Made by a program: the position numbers and the translations under genes. The notes beneath the pieces are model-generated. The model saw only the letters and a list, made by a program, of their open reading frames with translations, did not search any database and was not told the DNA's origin. A DNA stretch of 64,000 bases, from assembly GCF_007990505.1 (NCBI RefSeq), contig NZ_AP019822.1, positions 1,488,001 to 1,552,000 of the forward strand, given 5' to 3'. Each line of letters opens with the position of its first letter. Position 1 is the stretch's first letter. The DNA is from Pseudoleptotrichia goodfellowii. Lineage in GTDB: Bacteria > Fusobacteriota > Fusobacteriia > Fusobacteriales > Leptotrichiaceae. Shown one piece after another: positions 9,562 through 45,203 of this stretch.

Positions 9562-9657
9562 TTCTTTCCTTTCGCTTTACAATGTAATATTTATCTTATT
9601 TCTATTTTATCAATATTTTTTGTGTATTGCTATAATAAAATTTAATTTCTGTTTCTA

Positions 9658-10758
9658 TTACAAACTTATATTTTCCTCTGTTTCTGCATCAAATATATGA
9701 GCTTTATTCGTATCAAATCTGAATACTCTTTTTCCTTTCTTCGATACTGAATCTCCTACATGCTCTATGTTTATTCTGCATGTCATCTGATGTCCGTTTA
9801 ATGTAAAGTATATATACTCTTCATTTCCCATTTGTTCTACTACGCTTATTTCCCCTGTCTTTGATATCGAATCTTCATGTTCGGCTACACTTATATTTTC
9901 AGGTCTTATTCCGAATGTTACTTTCTTTCCTGTATGTCCTTTTACTTTTCTCCTTTTTTCATGAGATAGCTCTATTTCCGCTCCGTCTATATCTATATAT
10001 ACTTTCCCTCTTTTCTTTTAATACTCCGTCTACTAAGTTCATCGTAGGTGACCCTATAAATCCTGCCACAAACTTGTTCGCAGGATAATGATACAAGTTT
10101 AACGGTGTATCTACCTGCATTATTCTTCCCGCTCTCATTACTGTTATTCTGTCTCCCATTGTCATTGCTTCTACCTGATCATGGGTTACATATATCATCG
10201 TTGTTTTAGCTCCTGATGTAATTGTGTTATTCTTACACGCATCGATACTCTCAACTTCGCATCAAGGTTTGATAACGGTTCATCAAACAGAAATACTTCA
10301 GGTTTTCTTACTATCGCTCTTCCTAACGCTACCCTTTGTCTTTGTCCTCCTGACATTTCCTTAGGTTTTCTATCCAGTAATTCTGTTATCTCAAGTTTTT
10401 CTGCCGCTTCTCTTACTCTTCTATCTATTTCATCTTTCGGCGTTTTCTTTAATTTAAGTCCGAAAGCCATATTCTGATACACTGTCATATGAGGATACAA
10501 AGCATAGTTCTGGAACACCATTGCTATTCCTCTGTCTTTCGGAGGAACATCATTTACAAGTTTATCTCCTATATATATTTCTCCTCCTGTTATTTCTTCA
10601 AGTCCTGCTATCATTCTCAGTGTTGTGGATTTAGCACATCCTGAAGGTCCGACAAATACCATAAATTCTCCGTCTTTTATCTCCAAATCAATTCCATGAA
10701 CCGCTTTAAATCCGTTAGGATATTGTTTTTCCACTTTTTTTAATACTACTCCCGACAT
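9658..10758 (-). pseudogene. msmK: Sugar ABC ATPase (MsmK/UgpC type), interrupted by two compensating frameshifts
   Basis: The N-terminal 187 codons (10758-10195) encode a normal nucleotide-binding domain: Walker [10 protein letters not shown] (37-45, Ala in place of the usual Gly), signature MSGGQ (135-139), Walker B VFLFDE (155-160). Frame is lost at about 10204-10208, where one A seems missing, and TGA follows. The next frame continues the protein ([19 protein letters not shown]-loop included) to about 10005-10015. There one extra base restores the first frame, which runs through the regulatory domain to TAA at 9658. All three pieces are well conserved, so the break is recent or a sequencing error. 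The TGA overlaps the following ATG, so re-initiation is conceivable. This is the only ATPase for the ABC permeases in the window. Confidence 0.8.
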
Positions 10759-34330: not shown

Positions 34331-35476
34331 TCATTTTTGAAGATTCTTAACATTTTCATATCTTATTTTTCTTGTTATTTTTGCAACTTCAATCAATTTT
34401 TCTAAATTCTTTCCGAAAAAATTCATATATGCATCACAAAACTTATTTTCGTATAGATTTTCAGTACCGTCAAAGTTTTTATATCTTCTGCAGCCGCTTC
34501 TGCAAATTTTAAGATACTTGCATTTTTTACACTTTTCACTCATTTTTAAAGAAGATGTATAAAATTTTACTGCATTTTCACTGAAAAGTATATTTTCAAA
34601 TTTATCATTTACTATATTTCCTATTTTGTATTCATCCAACACATAAAAATCACAGGGGTATATATCTCCGTTTGATTCAACAACTCCGTTTACACTGCAA
34701 AACCCCATCATATCACAGGCTTCGGGCGGTTCTCCCAGAAGTATTCTTATTAAATTATCAAAATATCTTATACTTATAAAGTTACCCTTTATAAAATCTT
34801 CGTACCATAAAGAAAAAGTATCATTTAAAAATATTCCGTAATCTTTTGCTGTCAATGTATAGTTTTCTTCATTTTTTTTATTAAAATTATCAATACATGG
34901 AATAAACTGCATATATCTGAAATTTTTTTCTTTAAAAAAATTATAAACTTTTTTTCCATTCTTAGCTACAAGTTTGTTTATGACGCATAAAACATTAAAT
35001 TCAATATTATTATTCTTCAGTAATTCTGCTCCTTTAATAACTTGCTCGAAAGTTCCTTTGTTCTTTGCACTTAATCTGAAAACATCATGTATTTCTTTAT
35101 ATCCGTCTATAGATATTCCTATGAGATAATCATATTTTTTATACAGCTCTATCCATTCTCTATTCAGCAAAGTTCCGTTAGTTTGCATAAAAAATGCCGT
35201 ACGAATATTATTTTTATTATATATTTCAACATACTCATGGAATTTCCTGTAATATTCTATTCCTACAAGTGTAGGCTCCCCCCCCTGAAACATAAAATTA
35301 ACAATCGTATCTGCATATGCAAAAGCTTCTTTTACAAGCTTTTCCAGCACATCAAACTTCATAGGTCCGTAATTTTTTATAATTCTGTTATCTGCCACGT
35401 CATAATAAAAACAATATTTACATCTCAAATTACATCCGCTCGAATAAGGTTTTATCAGTAAGTTTAATGCCCTCAT
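34331..35476 (-). CDS. Anaerobic sulfatase-maturating enzyme (radical SAM/SPASM)
   Basis: 381 residues from the ATG at 35476 (a GTG at 35488 in the same frame has no visible ribosome site). The radical SAM cluster motif is CNLRCKYC (Cys15, 19, 22), followed by FQGGEPTL and the SPASM-type C-terminus with many cysteines (CSVNGVVESNGDIYPCDFY, CKKCKYLKICRSGC) for two extra iron-sulfur clusters. It oxidises the active Cys of the sulfatases to formylglycine in the cytoplasm without oxygen. All three sulfatases here have Cys-type motifs, as anSME accepts. It follows a sulfatase gene by about 75 bases and is closed by a strong terminator. Confidence 0.95.
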   Translation of the reverse strand: MRALNLLIKPYSSGCNLRCKYCFYYDVADNRIIKNYGPMKFDVLEKLVKEAFAYADTIVNFMFQGGEPTLVGIEYYRKFHEYVEIYNKNNIRTAFFMQTNGTLLNREWIELYKKYDYLIGISIDGYKEIHDVFRLSAKNKGTFEQVIKGAELLKNNNIEFNVLCVINKLVAKNGKKVYNFFKEKNFRYMQFIPCIDNFNKKNEENYTLTAKDYGIFLNDTFSLWYEDFIKGNFISIRYFDNLIRILLGEPPEACDMMGFCSVNGVVESNGDIYPCDFYVLDEYKIGNIVNDKFENILFSENAVKFYTSSLKMSEKCKKCKYLKICRSGCRRYKNFDGTENLYENKFCDAYMNFFGKNLEKLIEVAKITRKIRYENVKNLQK

Positions 35477-39647: not shown

Positions 39648-40085
39648 TTAAATTCCTTCTTCAAATTCTCCTTCATTTTTTGACTTAGTATCTTTTAATT
39701 CAAATCCTGTTATTTGACTTTTACCTGTTTCCACCGCATTCAAATACAGTTCGTTGATACTGTCATAACCTTCCCTTTCACAAACAGTTTCTAAAACCAT
39801 AGGTAAATTCATACCGCTGATTACTTTTACTTTTTCCTTTTTCAGACTTAAAACGGAAGCAGTTTTGAAGGGAGTTCCTCCTGCAATATCAGTAAATATC
39901 AATACTCCCTCTTCTCCGTTCAACTCGTCTATTTTTTCTTCAATTTCCTTTTCCAATAATTCAGGTGTTATATCTTCAGTAAAATTAATTGAATAAAACT
40001 TTTCAGGTTTCCCAAATACTAATTTTATTGAGCTTTCTATTCCTTCAGCTATTTTGCCATGCCCTGTCAAAATAATTCCTATCAT
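39648..40085 (-). CDS. PTS EIIA component, mannose/AgaF family (orphan)
   Basis: 145 residues, a stand-alone EIIA of the mannose-fructose-sorbose class with phosphorylated His9 in LTGHGKIAEG and the conserved FTDIAGGTPF segment. It normally passes phosphate from HPr to a IIB protein. No IIB, IIC or IID gene is present anywhere in the window, although the aga-type neighbours (AgaS, KbaY) match loci where such a PTS imports GalNAc. It may serve a permease encoded elsewhere or act as a phosphorylation-dependent regulator. Confidence 0.9.
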   Translation of the reverse strand: MIGIILTGHGKIAEGIESSIKLVFGKPEKFYSINFTEDITPELLEKEIEEKIDELNGEEGVLIFTDIAGGTPFKTASVLSLKKEKVKVISGMNLPMVLETVCEREGYDSINELYLNAVETGKSQITGFELKDTKSKNEGEFEEGI

Positions 40086-40115: not shown

Positions 40116-41300
40116 TTATTTATTAAATTTATGTACTTCAAATTTTTTAACTACTCTGTTTACCTCTCCCGTAGGAAACGGATTATCTGTCGTATTTCCT
40201 AAATACTGAGATTTAAAGAATGCATACATTTGTCCATATATTAAATATATAAACAAACTGCATAATTCTTTGTCTTTAATTTCCTGTATCTTTTTACTTT
40301 CAGGAATAACTGTTTCATCGGTATTTTCAGATATTTTTTCATTTTCTTTGATATCATAAGCTATTATTTTATCAGCTGTTTCATCACCGAACATTTCCTC
40401 CAAAAGACCTTCGTCATATTTTCTTGCATAATCATCCTGATTTACCAAATCAAATACTATTGTTTCTTTATCTATTATAGCTTTAGGACCGTGTCTGAAT
40501 CCTAAAGTTGTGTTGTTTACGGAAACTATTTTTCCTGCACTCAGTTCCATAACTTTTAAAGACAGTTCCTGAGCCAAACCTTTTAATATTCCGCTTCCAA
40601 GTATGACTATTCTTTTATTGTCATAATCAGCCAATTTTTTTATTTTTTCATACTTTTCTTTTAATTCGCTCTCTGCAAGAACGATAATCTTTTCCATGTC
40701 TTCTATTACATTTTTACTATTTTTACCGAATACTAAAATTCCTGTCAAAAGCATACAGCTGAAACTGTTTATCATTGCAAAACCTTTATCATTGGATTTT
40801 TCAGGCATTAGAAGTAAAAAGGTTTTCTCGTTATTTACGGAACTTTTAGCCAATGCTCCTTCTTTATTACAAGTGATAAATAAATGATAGATATTATCAA
40901 TATTATCATTTGCAATATCTACAACTGCCATGCTCTCAGGCGAATCTCCCGATCTTGCAAAAGACACAAGTAGTGTTTTTTTATCTTTTTTGAAATAATT
41001 CATCGGATTATTTAAAATATCGGTTGTTGCAAAAGATTTAAACTCTACTTTTGATTCTTTTCTCAATAACGGCTCCAAGATATTTCCTACATATTCGGAA
41101 GTTCCCGCTCCTGTAAATATAACATCAAAAGTTTCATTGAAATCTATTTTTTTCAGAAATTCTTTCAACTGTTTTCCGGAATTTTTAAATATTTCCAATG
41201 TTTCTTTCCATAATTCAGGTTGTTGTAAAATTTCTTTTGCTGTAATATACGATTTTTTTTCTTTTAACAAATTTTCGTCTATCCCTAAAAGTAAACTCAT
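40116..41300 (-). CDS. agaS: AgaS-type SIS-domain ketose/aldose isomerase-deaminase
   Basis: 394 residues with two SIS domains (about 45-190 and 215-370). Hallmarks are DVIFTGAGTSEYVGN, LLVSFARSGDSPESMAVV and NNTTLGFRHGPKAI. AgaS converts galactosamine-6-phosphate to tagatose-6-phosphate. It is the first gene of a unit with EIIA, aldolase, symporter, sulfatase and anSME, behind a consensus promoter and a perfect NagR/dre palindrome. The deacetylase that would supply its substrate is not in the window. Confidence 0.9.
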   Translation of the reverse strand: MSLLLGIDENLLKEKKSYITAKEILQQPELWKETLEIFKNSGKQLKEFLKKIDFNETFDVIFTGAGTSEYVGNILEPLLRKESKVEFKSFATTDILNNPMNYFKKDKKTLLVSFARSGDSPESMAVVDIANDNIDNIYHLFITCNKEGALAKSSVNNEKTFLLLMPEKSNDKGFAMINSFSCMLLTGILVFGKNSKNVIEDMEKIIVLAESELKEKYEKIKKLADYDNKRIVILGSGILKGLAQELSLKVMELSAGKIVSVNNTTLGFRHGPKAIIDKETIVFDLVNQDDYARKYDEGLLEEMFGDETADKIIAYDIKENEKISENTDETVIPESKKIQEIKDKELCSLFIYLIYGQMYAFFKSQYLGNTTDNPFPTGEVNRVVKKFEVHKFNK

Positions 41301-41341: not shown

Positions 41342-41359
41342 AATTGGTATATACCAATT
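41342..41359. promoter_or_regulatory. Perfect NagR/dre-like operator at agaS
   Basis: AATTGGTATATACCAATT is an 18-bp perfect palindrome about 12 bases downstream of the -10, over the transcription start, where a bound repressor would block RNA polymerase. It is close to the dre sites of NagR/DasR regulators, and a NagR-like gene lies 3.1 kb away. Confidence 0.8.
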
Positions 41360-41370
41360 TTTTCAATATA

Positions 41371-41398
41371 ATTATAATACGATTTTTCATTTTGTCAA
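41371..41398 (-). promoter_or_regulatory. Promoter of the agaS operon
   Basis: Minus-strand -35 TTGACA (41393-41398), 16-base spacer and -10 TATAAT (41371-41376), a consensus promoter. About 39 bases here are nearly identical to the promoter of the lacI gene at 44329-44356, so one was copied from the other. Confidence 0.85.
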
Positions 41399-41563
41399 TA
41401 CCTTTTTGAAATTTTTTTTGTTTTTTATTCTCTATACACATAAATCCAGTAAAATCAATACCAAATTTAAAAGCAGAAGTTATAAAAGTAAAAACACTTT
41501 TAATCCCTTCTGCTTAATATATTTTATAGAGAAAAATCACATAAATCAGTACTGTATAATATT

Positions 41564-42157
41564 TCAATATTTTTTATTTCTTGCATTTTTCAATACTTCT
41601 TCAAACTTTTCGTATGAACAGAAACCGTTTTTATCAACAGGACATTCTTCCATTTCCAGTACTTTTCTCATCGGCGGATTTTTCAAACCTAACTGTTCCC
41701 CATTTTTGAGCTGTTCTGTTGATTGATATATATACTCGATTTTTACCTTCTTTTTTTTCGATTCCCTGTCTTTCCATATTTGAAAAAATATTTTTCCCCT
41801 TACAGGGAACATTTCATACTGTTTTTCCAATGTATATTTTTTGATATTCAAAGCCGAAAACAATGCAGCAATATTAGAATCATGACCTACTATTACTGTT
41901 ATTTTATGTTCCGAATTGAAAATATCTTTGTACATAAATTTAATCAATTCTTTCGAGATGTACGGACCAATAATTTTGTTTCCGAATAAAGTCTGAATAT
42001 ACGTGTCTTTTATTTCATTCAATCTTTTCCATTTTTCTTCCGTATCTATATTTCCGTTTACAATATTTTTCGGTTTTTCTCCTTCATATAACTGCAATAA
42101 TAGTGTATCAACTATTTGAGTTCCTTTTTTTACCCTGCCTTCCAGTTCGGCATATTT
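41564..42157 (-). pseudogene. Histidine-acid phosphatase, C-terminal fragment (copy 2)
   Basis: The frame encodes only the C-terminal half of a histidine acid phosphatase: a helix (KYAELEGRVKKGTQIVD), the catalytic HD motif VGHDSNIAALFSAL, then a tail found in no other gene here. Homology to copy 1 (42130) begins at about 42157, inside the end of copy 1, and there is no RHG motif upstream in this frame. A TTG at 42097 gives 177 codons but no natural start is evident. It seems to be the remnant of a tandem paralog whose front half was lost. Confidence 0.7.
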
Positions 42158-43130
42158 ATTTTTTTCTTTTTATCGGTTCTGTCTTCCCACAATTCCAAAA
42201 ACATTTTTCCGCCGACAGGAGAATACTCAAACTGATTATTCAATCTGTATTCTTTCACTCCCATTGCCGACAATAGTGCAAATATATTACAGTCATGTCC
42301 GACCATGAGGGAAATTTCCGTATTGTTGCCAAAAAAGTATTTATGTATATATTTTAACAAAGGAAGCATCATATGTTGTGCGGCTTCTTCATTTTCATGT
42401 TTAATTTTCATGTATTCTTCTCTTAAATCGAAAATTCCCTTTAATTCTTCAAACGTTCTCACTCTCCCGTCTAATAATTTTTCAATTTCTATCCCCTCGT
42501 AATACTGTAACATCAGATTTCCTGCCAATTCCACATATAAGTTAAACAGTCCTGCAGGATTAAAATACTCGGAATTTAAAGTTACTCTTCCGTAATAACG
42601 TTCTCCTTCATCACTCCCTTCTTCATAATCTATCAAATCTTTCAGTAATTCATAATTTTTTGTTATCATTTCATCCATTTTTTTCAAAGCCTTTTCAGAT
42701 TTTTTAAATATCTCTCTAAATCTGTCGTGATTACTCACAATATTATGCTGAAAAACCGGATCCATTTTCCCGTACTCTACTTCAACATGAGGAACTACAT
42801 TCAAACCGGGAAACATTCCCAAGCTTAATGCCTGAGCAGCAGCAACCGTTCTTTGATAAGCATTTGCATATATTTTTTTTCCTATTTTATCTATATTTTT
42901 TCCGTTTATAAATTTATTTTCTGTCAAATATTCTTTTATATATTGTCCGAAATAAAGCTCCAACACAGCACCTTTAGCTGTCAATTTTCCTGTATTATTT
43001 TCATGTTCTTCCAGTTTATAAATTTTCTTTTTTACTATATCACTCATACTCAAAAGCGGGCTTCTCAAACCATGTCTACTAAGTATCAGTATTTTTTCAT
43101 TTCAAAATTTTCTGTTATATTTTCTTTCAT
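42130..43130 (-). pseudogene. Histidine-acid phosphatase with frameshift before the catalytic RHG motif (copy 1)
   Basis: With ATG at 43130 and site AAGGA upstream, translation gives MKENITENFEMKKY and stops at a TGA. Adding one A to the six-A run at 43092-43097 joins this to KILILSRHGLRSP, which carries the catalytic His of the family. The frame then runs 300 codons to GHDCNIFALLSAMG (HD motif). It ends abruptly after a lysine run (DKKKK) with eight unrelated residues, so the C-terminal tail is missing too. A start at the internal ATG 43068 would omit the catalytic RHG. No signal peptide; the enzyme would be cytoplasmic. A LacI-type operator and promoter precede it. Confidence 0.75.
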
Positions 43131-43178: not shown

Positions 43179-43200
43179 AAATTGTGAACGTTCACAATTT
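43179..43200. promoter_or_regulatory. Perfect 22-bp LacI-family operator
   Basis: A perfect palindrome with half-site AAATTGTGAAC and a central CG, the classic LacI/GalR-type pattern. It lies immediately downstream of the -10 of the phosphatase promoter and 45 bases after the end of the LacI-family gene, so that regulator very probably represses the phosphatase gene. Confidence 0.85.
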
Positions 43201-43244: not shown

Positions 43245-44249
43245 TTATTTCGTACTGTTTCTTATTATCAGTTCTCCTGCTACAAATTCTGATTTTTCTT
43301 CTTTACCGTTTATTAAATTTATAATTTTTCTGAAAAGCTTGTCGGCTGTTTTTTTATAATTCAGATCTATTGTCGATAACGACGGAAAATAATATTTTGA
43401 AATAGGTATGTTATCATATCCTAAAATCATTATTTCATCAGGAATTTTTATAGATTTTTCATTTAATGCTCTGAGAACTCCTGCCGCTTTTTCATCTCCC
43501 GATATAAAAAATGCTTCCGGTAACTGATTATTTTCTATCTTTTTCATAACTTCTCTGTAAATTTTTTCCTGATTTTTCATTTTTCTCATTACGTTAAAAT
43601 ATTTCAAATTTATATTTTTCCCTCTATAGACATCTGCAATTCCTTTTTCCCTGTCATCTTCCTTAAAAGTATCATTTCCTGTTATAAAATCTATTTTTTT
43701 AACACCCTTTTTAAAAAGATATTTCGTTCCGTTAATAAATGAATTATAATCATCACTCGCTACAAATATTTCTTCTTCTTTTGATGACTTTCCGAAAATT
43801 ACATAAGGCACATTATTATTTTTCAAATAAGAAACTCTCGAATCATCTTCCAATTTATTAAAAATTACAGCTCCGTCTATAAAATTACTTGTTGTATACA
43901 GTAAAGATTTTTTCAATTCTTTTTCTTCATAAAACTGCTCGACGAAAATAGAAATTTTAGGTGTATTATTTGCCACTATTATTTCATTTACAAGATTATT
44001 TAACCAAATTGTAGTATCATGTCCTTTTTCTCTTCTTATACTTATAAGAACGTTCACATTTTTTTTACTATTCAAATTTCTCGCATAGAAATTAGGCTTA
44101 TATTCAAGCTCTTTTATTGCCGATTCGATAACTCTTCTTGTACTTTCTTTTACATCAGGACTTTTATTTATTACTCTTGAAACAGTCTGAATAGAATATC
44201 CCGTCTTTTTTGCAACATCTTTTATTGTACTTTTGTTTTTCTGAATCAT
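43245..44249 (-). CDS. LacI/GalR-family transcriptional regulator
   Basis: 334 residues: N-terminal helix-turn-helix and hinge (TIKDVAKKTGYSIQTVSRVINK, EYKPNFYARNL) and a periplasmic-binding-protein-like effector domain. Its likely target is the perfect operator at 43179-43200, just downstream. The gene has its own consensus promoter with a degenerate NagR-like site, which suggests control by the divergently encoded GntR regulator. The effector is unknown; the phosphatase target hints at a sugar phosphate. Confidence 0.92.
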   Translation of the reverse strand: MIQKNKSTIKDVAKKTGYSIQTVSRVINKSPDVKESTRRVIESAIKELEYKPNFYARNLNSKKNVNVLISIRREKGHDTTIWLNNLVNEIIVANNTPKISIFVEQFYEEKELKKSLLYTTSNFIDGAVIFNKLEDDSRVSYLKNNNVPYVIFGKSSKEEEIFVASDDYNSFINGTKYLFKKGVKKIDFITGNDTFKEDDREKGIADVYRGKNINLKYFNVMRKMKNQEKIYREVMKKIENNQLPEAFFISGDEKAAGVLRALNEKSIKIPDEIMILGYDNIPISKYYFPSLSTIDLNYKKTADKLFRKIINLINGKEEKSEFVAGELIIRNSTK

Positions 44250-44300: not shown

Positions 44301-44356
44301 AATTGGTTTATATCATTTATTTAGCATAATTATAATATGATTTTTCATTTTGTCAA
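44301..44356 (-). promoter_or_regulatory. lacI promoter with degenerate dre-like site
   Basis: -35 TTGACA (44351-44356), 16-base spacer and -10 TATAAT (44329-44334). Downstream, at 44301-44318, AATTGGTTTATATCATTT keeps one good half of the palindrome found at agaS. Promoter and spacer are almost the same as at agaS. In the same gap, the plus-strand GntR gene has no clear promoter that I can define. Confidence 0.65.
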
Positions 44357-44462
44357 TACCTTTTCAAAAAAATTTTTAAAATTAAACCGAATTTATTCTC
44401 TGTTTTATTTTATCAAAATATGATATTATATAGGAAAGAAATTTTAGAAAGGATTTGTATAA

Positions 44463-45203
44463 GTGAAATCAACTGATAAATTTCCTACTGTTCCTTTATA
44501 TTATAGGATTTATGAGCATTTTAAAACTTTAATAACAAATGAAAAACTTTCAGAAGGAGAGGCTTTACCGCCTGAAAGAGATTTGGCGGATACATTCAAA
44601 GTCAGTCGTGCCACGATAAGACAGGCTCTTCAAAAACTTCAGGAAGATAATCTTGTATACAGGTTGCACGGGAACGGAACATTTGTATCTCACAAGACAG
44701 TAAAACAGGAACTGACTTCTTTTTACAGTTTCTATGAAGAAACTGTAAAAGCGGGAAAAATTCCGTCTTCAAAAGTATTAAAACATGAAGTTATTCCGTC
44801 GGATAAAGAATTTTCCGAAATTTTTAAAATTCCGTTGACAGTGAATATTTTGCATATTACCAGATTAAGATTAATTAATGACGAACCGATAATGTATGAG
44901 GATACATATATTCCTTTAAACAGATTTGAAAATTTTGATCCGGAACTGTTAAATGAAAAGCCCATGTATTCTATTTTTAAAGAGCAGTATAATGTGTCAT
45001 TTGACAAAGCAACAGAGTCTTTTTCTTCACTTATTATTAAAGACAAAGAAATTCTCGACAACTTGGGATATAAAGAAAAATCTTCGTGTATGCTTATAAA
45101 AAGATTGACTTACGAAAAAAATCGTGTCATAGAATACACTATTTCTTATGCAAGAGGAGATAAATACGAATATAAAGTTATACTTAACAATATAGAAAAA
45201 TAA
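44463..45203 (+). CDS. nagR: NagR-like GntR/HutC transcriptional regulator
   Basis: 246 residues starting at GTG with AGAAAGGA nine bases upstream. Winged helix at about 10-75 (LYYRIYEHFKTLI, ERDLADTFKVSRATIRQAL, HGNGTFV) and UTRA effector domain from about 90. Length and layout match NagR/YvoA and DasR, which sense glucosamine-6-phosphate or N-acetylglucosamine-6-phosphate and bind dre sites. Four dre-like sites occur in this window at agaS, lacI, the LacC-like kinase and the first ABC operon, so it probably represses the amino-sugar genes until a hexosamine phosphate builds up. The symbol is a best guess. Confidence 0.8.
   Translation: MKSTDKFPTVPLYYRIYEHFKTLITNEKLSEGEALPPERDLADTFKVSRATIRQALQKLQEDNLVYRLHGNGTFVSHKTVKQELTSFYSFYEETVKAGKIPSSKVLKHEVIPSDKEFSEIFKIPLTVNILHITRLRLINDEPIMYEDTYIPLNRFENFDPELLNEKPMYSIFKEQYNVSFDKATESFSSLIIKDKEILDNLGYKEKSSCMLIKRLTYEKNRVIEYTISYARGDKYEYKVILNNIEK

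Follow-up and report, generated by a model that had tools for sequence, protein, structure and literature searches.

The locus lies in a 64-kb window of the Pseudoleptotrichia goodfellowii genome (the whole stretch of 64,000 nucleotides that was analysed, whose numbering is used below), which consists of a single contig of 2,290,729 bases. Two pieces of histidine acid phosphatase genes, referred to as copy 1 and copy 2, follow a lacI gene, and the three together sit between gntR and agaS. The gene for the GntR-family regulator (44463–45203, plus strand) forms one edge of this insert, and the gene for the AgaS-type sugar isomerase (40116–41300) is its neighbour on the other side. The agaS gene and all genes of the insert are on the minus strand, with the gene for the LacI-family regulator (43245–44249) upstream of copy 1.

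Copy 1 is the remnant of an Agp-type histidine acid phosphatase, open from stop to stop at 42130–43101 (323 residues). The RHGxRxP motif, the distal Arg and the HD motif are all contained in this one frame (43101–42130), and QRT is also kept. The RHG codons are located at 43069–43077 (catalytic His at 43074–43072) and the HD codons at 42292–42297; copy 1 retains RHG, Arg and HD residues found to be invariant across 15 aligned sequences. The frame has no usual start codon upstream of RHG, the first ATG, GTG or TTG being a TTG at 43068, past the motif. The only start preceded by a ribosome-binding-like sequence (AGAAAGGAAT) is the ATG at 43130, from which a frame of 14 codons (43086–43130, minus strand) runs into a TGA (43088–43086) just 3' of a run of six As at 43092–43097. 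At this run the ATG frame diverges from the one that contains RHG, as an earlier note on this DNA had read it. The note had also described copy 1 as cut after a lysine-rich run, and indeed the frame ends at 42130, just past the lysine-rich stretch near 42150–42165, with the last approximately 60 residues absent relative to its relatives. Copy 1 leaves no space for a signal peptide and contains a single cysteine. A whole translatable gene, with a start before RHG and a complete C-terminus, is not found at the locus. A fold model of copy 1 was of middling confidence (pLDDT 63.1); Agp is the best match of this predicted structure among solved folds, and the model adds nothing beyond that.

Copy 2 (41564–42163, minus strand) is the C-terminal half of a second Agp-type phosphatase. 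It is open from 42163 to 41564 and contains the HD codons (41879–41884) and the C-terminal Cys pair; the RHG half is missing, in agreement with its earlier description as an HD half only. When aligned with Enterobacter Agp (PDB 3ntl), copy 1 covers residues 8–330 and copy 2 residues 197–389. HD is thus present twice, and at the joint copy 1 has lost its end and copy 2 its first half. The two pieces meet at 42150–42170 (minus strand) in an A-rich lysine stretch, AAAAAGAAAAAAA, and in intact relatives both sites matching it are lysine-rich as well.

Complementary ends are missing at one joint, which is the pattern taken to mark a deletion between paralogs. GC3 is raised in both copies (0.296 in copy 1 and 0.285 in copy 2, compared with 0.238, SD 0.027, in 49 intact ORFs). 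A single deletion between two neighbouring old paralogs would be the shortest account of the sequence, and we infer that the A-rich stretch had a role in it. Recombination debris between paralogs had been one of the options named for this locus, and it is the one borne out by the complementary remnants of two Agp-type genes joined at the A-rich lysine stretch.

Regulatory sites and the aga neighbourhood

A promoter copy with the arrangement TTGACA-16-TATAAT is located before lacI (44315–44377, minus strand). It and the agaS promoter (41357–41419, minus strand) are the two arms of a 63-nt direct repeat, with 84% identity between them. The best 34-base match between the arms has 33 identical bases, as compared with 22–24 in 15 shuffles. 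Both aga-type promoters match the sigma-70 consensus at 12 of 12 positions, while a sigma-70 scan around the locus gave no excess of sites (21, against 19.3 in shuffles).

Between lacI and copy 1 there is a perfect palindrome of 22 bp (43179–43200). It is the longest perfect one in the window, and its core has no second occurrence in the genome when up to one mismatch is allowed. It is probably the operator of the neighbouring LacI-family regulator. A perfect 18-bp palindrome in the agaS promoter (41342–41359) is a probable GntR operator. A second LacI-family gene (G000:C1:879099–880088, L068), 51% identical to the lacI gene of the insert, is located beside sugar ABC transporter genes; a relative of it occupies the same setting in G001 and G002, the two other genomes of the genus.

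Neither G001 nor G002 contains lacI or a phosphatase at the gntR site. In G002, agaS directly follows gntR; in G001, a symporter gene comes after gntR, with agaS further on. In another genome, G005, a phosphatase of the Agp type is located inside an aga operon, so that the association with amino-sugar use recurs. The AgaF-type PTS IIA gene of the window (39648–40085, minus strand) has no IIB, IIC or IID genes beside it, unlike its counterpart in G002, which adjoins all three. The second AgaF-type IIA gene of G002 has no better matches elsewhere in the genome than two of 36% and 30% identity.

Relatives of the two copies

Both pieces have their best sequence match in Agp, the periplasmic glucose-1-phosphatase/inositol phosphatase (PDB 1nt4, 3ntl; NF007553), with E-values against the Enterobacter protein of 1.4e-46 for copy 1 and 2.2e-47 for copy 2. 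The Pfam His_Phos_2 scores of 42.9 and 28.4 bits are above the gathering score of 23.6; the scores for NF007553, the Agp equivalog (178.8 and 191.2 bits), are under its cut-off of 425, both pieces being partial. Agp-type proteins are placed in branch 2 of the histidine phosphatase superfamily. Copy 1 shares with Agp the RHG..R.P, QRT and HD motifs, and copy 2 shares HD. Unlike Agp, copy 1 is without a signal peptide and the C-terminal part, and copy 2 without roughly its N-terminal half.

Identity between the two copies is only 33% over 148 shared columns, which makes them old paralogs and rules out a fresh tandem duplication. The earlier description as a tandem of phosphatases therefore stands for the two pieces, both His_Phos_2 proteins, and fails where it would imply recent duplication. 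Copy 2 has its nearest kin in the secreted Agp of Leptotrichia; it is 46–48% identical to intact genes of G004, G005 and four genomes of genus g6, taken to be Leptotrichia. Copy 1 forms a long branch (1.57) of uncertain placement, which falls with the long Agp type in a tree of the shared region; this tree was built from 24 hand-chosen rows, namely both copies, 16 of the 19 relatives from the family and six of the 80 loci from a profile search. The short phosphatases without a signal peptide in other Leptotrichiaceae were also considered as sharing an origin with copy 1; this was rejected, as they form a clade of their own (100/100).

The secreted Agp-type genes of Leptotrichia and its relatives (G004, G005, G008, G011, G015 and G017) have a C-terminal Cys pair as in copy 2. 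Unlike the copies described here, they are single and intact and have a hydrophobic leader, and no lacI relative is found beside the gene in G004, G005 and G015, the three of the six whose surroundings were read. The missing signal peptide and single Cys of copy 1, set beside the Cys pair that copy 2 shares with secreted relatives, point to a cytoplasmic and a secreted form. Judged by these features, copy 1 was probably cytoplasmic and copy 2 probably secreted.

In 18 of 19 relatives, the catalytic motif is in frame with an upstream start. The exception is a Leptotrichia gene (G010; L074, 7031–7969, minus strand) in which the N-terminal half is swapped for unrelated sequence, a second and independent wreck in this family. 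An intact neighbouring pair of long Agp-type phosphatases was found in another genus of the family (G022; L072, 898–3473, minus strand). It is the only other neighbouring pair seen and belongs to a different branch. An intact ancestor with the order lacI–phosphatase–phosphatase was not found among the relatives seen.

A relative is present in 17 of the 33 genomes of the family at E-values up to 0.001 and absent from both other genomes of the genus. Across the phylum, 17 of 98 genomes contain one at E-values up to 1e-15, all of them within the Leptotrichiaceae. A search of genome contigs with copy 1 alone found no relative; with alignment A1, 80 of 322 loci were kept, mostly from Enterobacterales. 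Two loci were found in viral contigs. The plasmid search returned 845 records, all below 60% identity, with Agp genes as the best among the matches listed. Rfam gave no match anywhere in the 64-kb window. No paper was found in literature searches that paired glucose-1-phosphatase with Leptotrichia, or phase variation with Streptobacillus and Leptotrichia.

Accounts of the broken frames

The frame of copy 1 breaks in a homopolymer beside the start codon, and the earlier note had raised phase variation, with slippage of the six-A run turning copy 1 on and off. Runs of this length are ordinary here. The 49 intact ORFs of the window contain 155 A6, 85 A7, 17 A8 and one A9 run (103 longer than six in all), and 48 of the 49 have runs of at least six. 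Even within the first 60 nt, the longest A run is A6 in eight of these ORFs and A7 or A8 in eight more. Moreover, no state of the run supplies the C-terminus of copy 1, so that one extra A, which had been expected to restore the gene, would still leave a protein lacking the last approximately 60 residues. Of two marks of a contingency gene, a tract longer than the background (that of the intact ORFs of the window) and a gene that is whole in one state, the locus has neither. Known poly-A contingency genes carry longer tracts, according to the accessible part of one study (PMC3441752): in Vibrio cholerae, wbeL had an A7 variant after a one-base deletion, and manA had A9 tracts with an A8 variant, for which reversion was shown. 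As in copy 1, the frame of these genes is lost at an A run inside the gene; unlike copy 1, with its six As and missing gene end, they have longer tracts and are otherwise intact (PMC3441752, same part). The length of the run, the A-run background and the absence of the C-terminus in every state make phase variation extremely unlikely.

A different homopolymer of the window is found in an intact gene for an anaerobic sulfatase maturase, where eight Cs (35278–35285; read as G8 on the coding strand) fall within the QGGEP motif. All 11 other family sequences read have no unbroken run at this place. As a candidate slipping tract, this G8 is preferable to the A6 run in copy 1.

Low-level synthesis of copy 1 protein by a programmed frameshift, transcript slippage or re-initiation at a non-standard start is highly improbable. 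The intact catalytic residues and the long open frame of copy 1 leave room for some product, as does a hairpin of −16 kcal/mol located right after the A run (z = −2.06; five of 200 shuffles as good). However, the hairpin begins without a spacer, and three relatives folded at the same place gave no hairpin signal (z = 0.05, 0.54 and −0.82). The arrangement is found in no relative, 18 of 19 having plain frames, and the C-terminus of copy 1 is missing whatever the frame mechanism. Expression of the locus as one two-headed, chimeric phosphatase is also very unlikely. Such a protein would consist of the RHG domain with its HD, followed by the second HD half; slippage would join the frames, or the assembly would have miscounted them, and the LacI repressor would have its only strong genomic operator here.

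The breaks themselves may be questioned. The assembly of strain JCM16774 is based on MinION reads, polished with nanopolish and with MiSeq/Pilon as stated in the accessible part of its description (PMC6914741), and both breaks fall within A-rich runs. It is possible, if rather unlikely, that one or both are uncorrected nanopore indels; a longer chimeric frame could then exist, and the fusion would still be real. In favour of this, a multi-sugar ABC ATPase gene in the same window is frame-broken relative to a near-identical intact paralog. On the other hand, the phosphatase locus occurs only once in the genome, so that short reads should have corrected errors there. One-base errors can produce neither the missing ends nor the doubled HD. 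A frame-break detector called eight candidates in 400 kb of this genome and 11 in 400 kb of the draft genome G001, and these counts, although rough and obtained with settings tuned after the fact, indicate no general excess of frame breaks in the assembly. With the first penalties nothing was called, in the window or elsewhere, and with the second many plain gene boundaries were called; the third setting, with a start-codon filter, was used. The detector needs 90 nt on either side and is therefore blind to the 5' break of copy 1. It gave three candidates in the window, one of which (62053) resembles a plain gene boundary. The catalytic residues and the open frame of 323 codons kept in copy 1 imply either that the decay is recent or that the 5' break is not real.

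The ATPase gene (UgpC/MsmK type, approximately 9656–10758, minus strand) is split by two frame changes. Its intact paralog at genome position 1,699,337 is identical at 1098 of 1105 bases (99%), with five one-base gaps. The breaks are probably nanopore indels that survived polishing, this being a repeat in which short reads had no unambiguous place. With this gene as an example, a frame break in this assembly should be believed only once it has been seen in reads.

Proposed history of the cassette

We favour ordinary decay, at a probability of about 70%: the locus would be a pseudogene pair, left from a LacI-controlled cassette that was wrecked by a deletion and by loss of frame, and not a switch. 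The cassette would originally have contained two Agp-type histidine acid phosphatases. It may have come to rest between gntR and agaS along with a duplicate of the aga promoter. A single deletion would then have fused the two genes at the A-rich lysine stretch, taking with it the 3' end of copy 1 and roughly the 5' half of copy 2. The frame would also have been lost at the start of copy 1, so that translation from its start codon could no longer read the catalytic RHG; the order given here for these events is a proposed one. As the sequence reads, neither piece could yield a working phosphatase, and activity has presumably been lost.

The locus warns against taking each broken homopolymer as a switch. 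If the LacI-family regulator has lost its only target, it would provide a test case for an orphaned repressor. On the reading as decay, the locus would be a small, clear case of an accessory phosphatase cassette that enters, and then decays in, the genome of an oral anaerobe.
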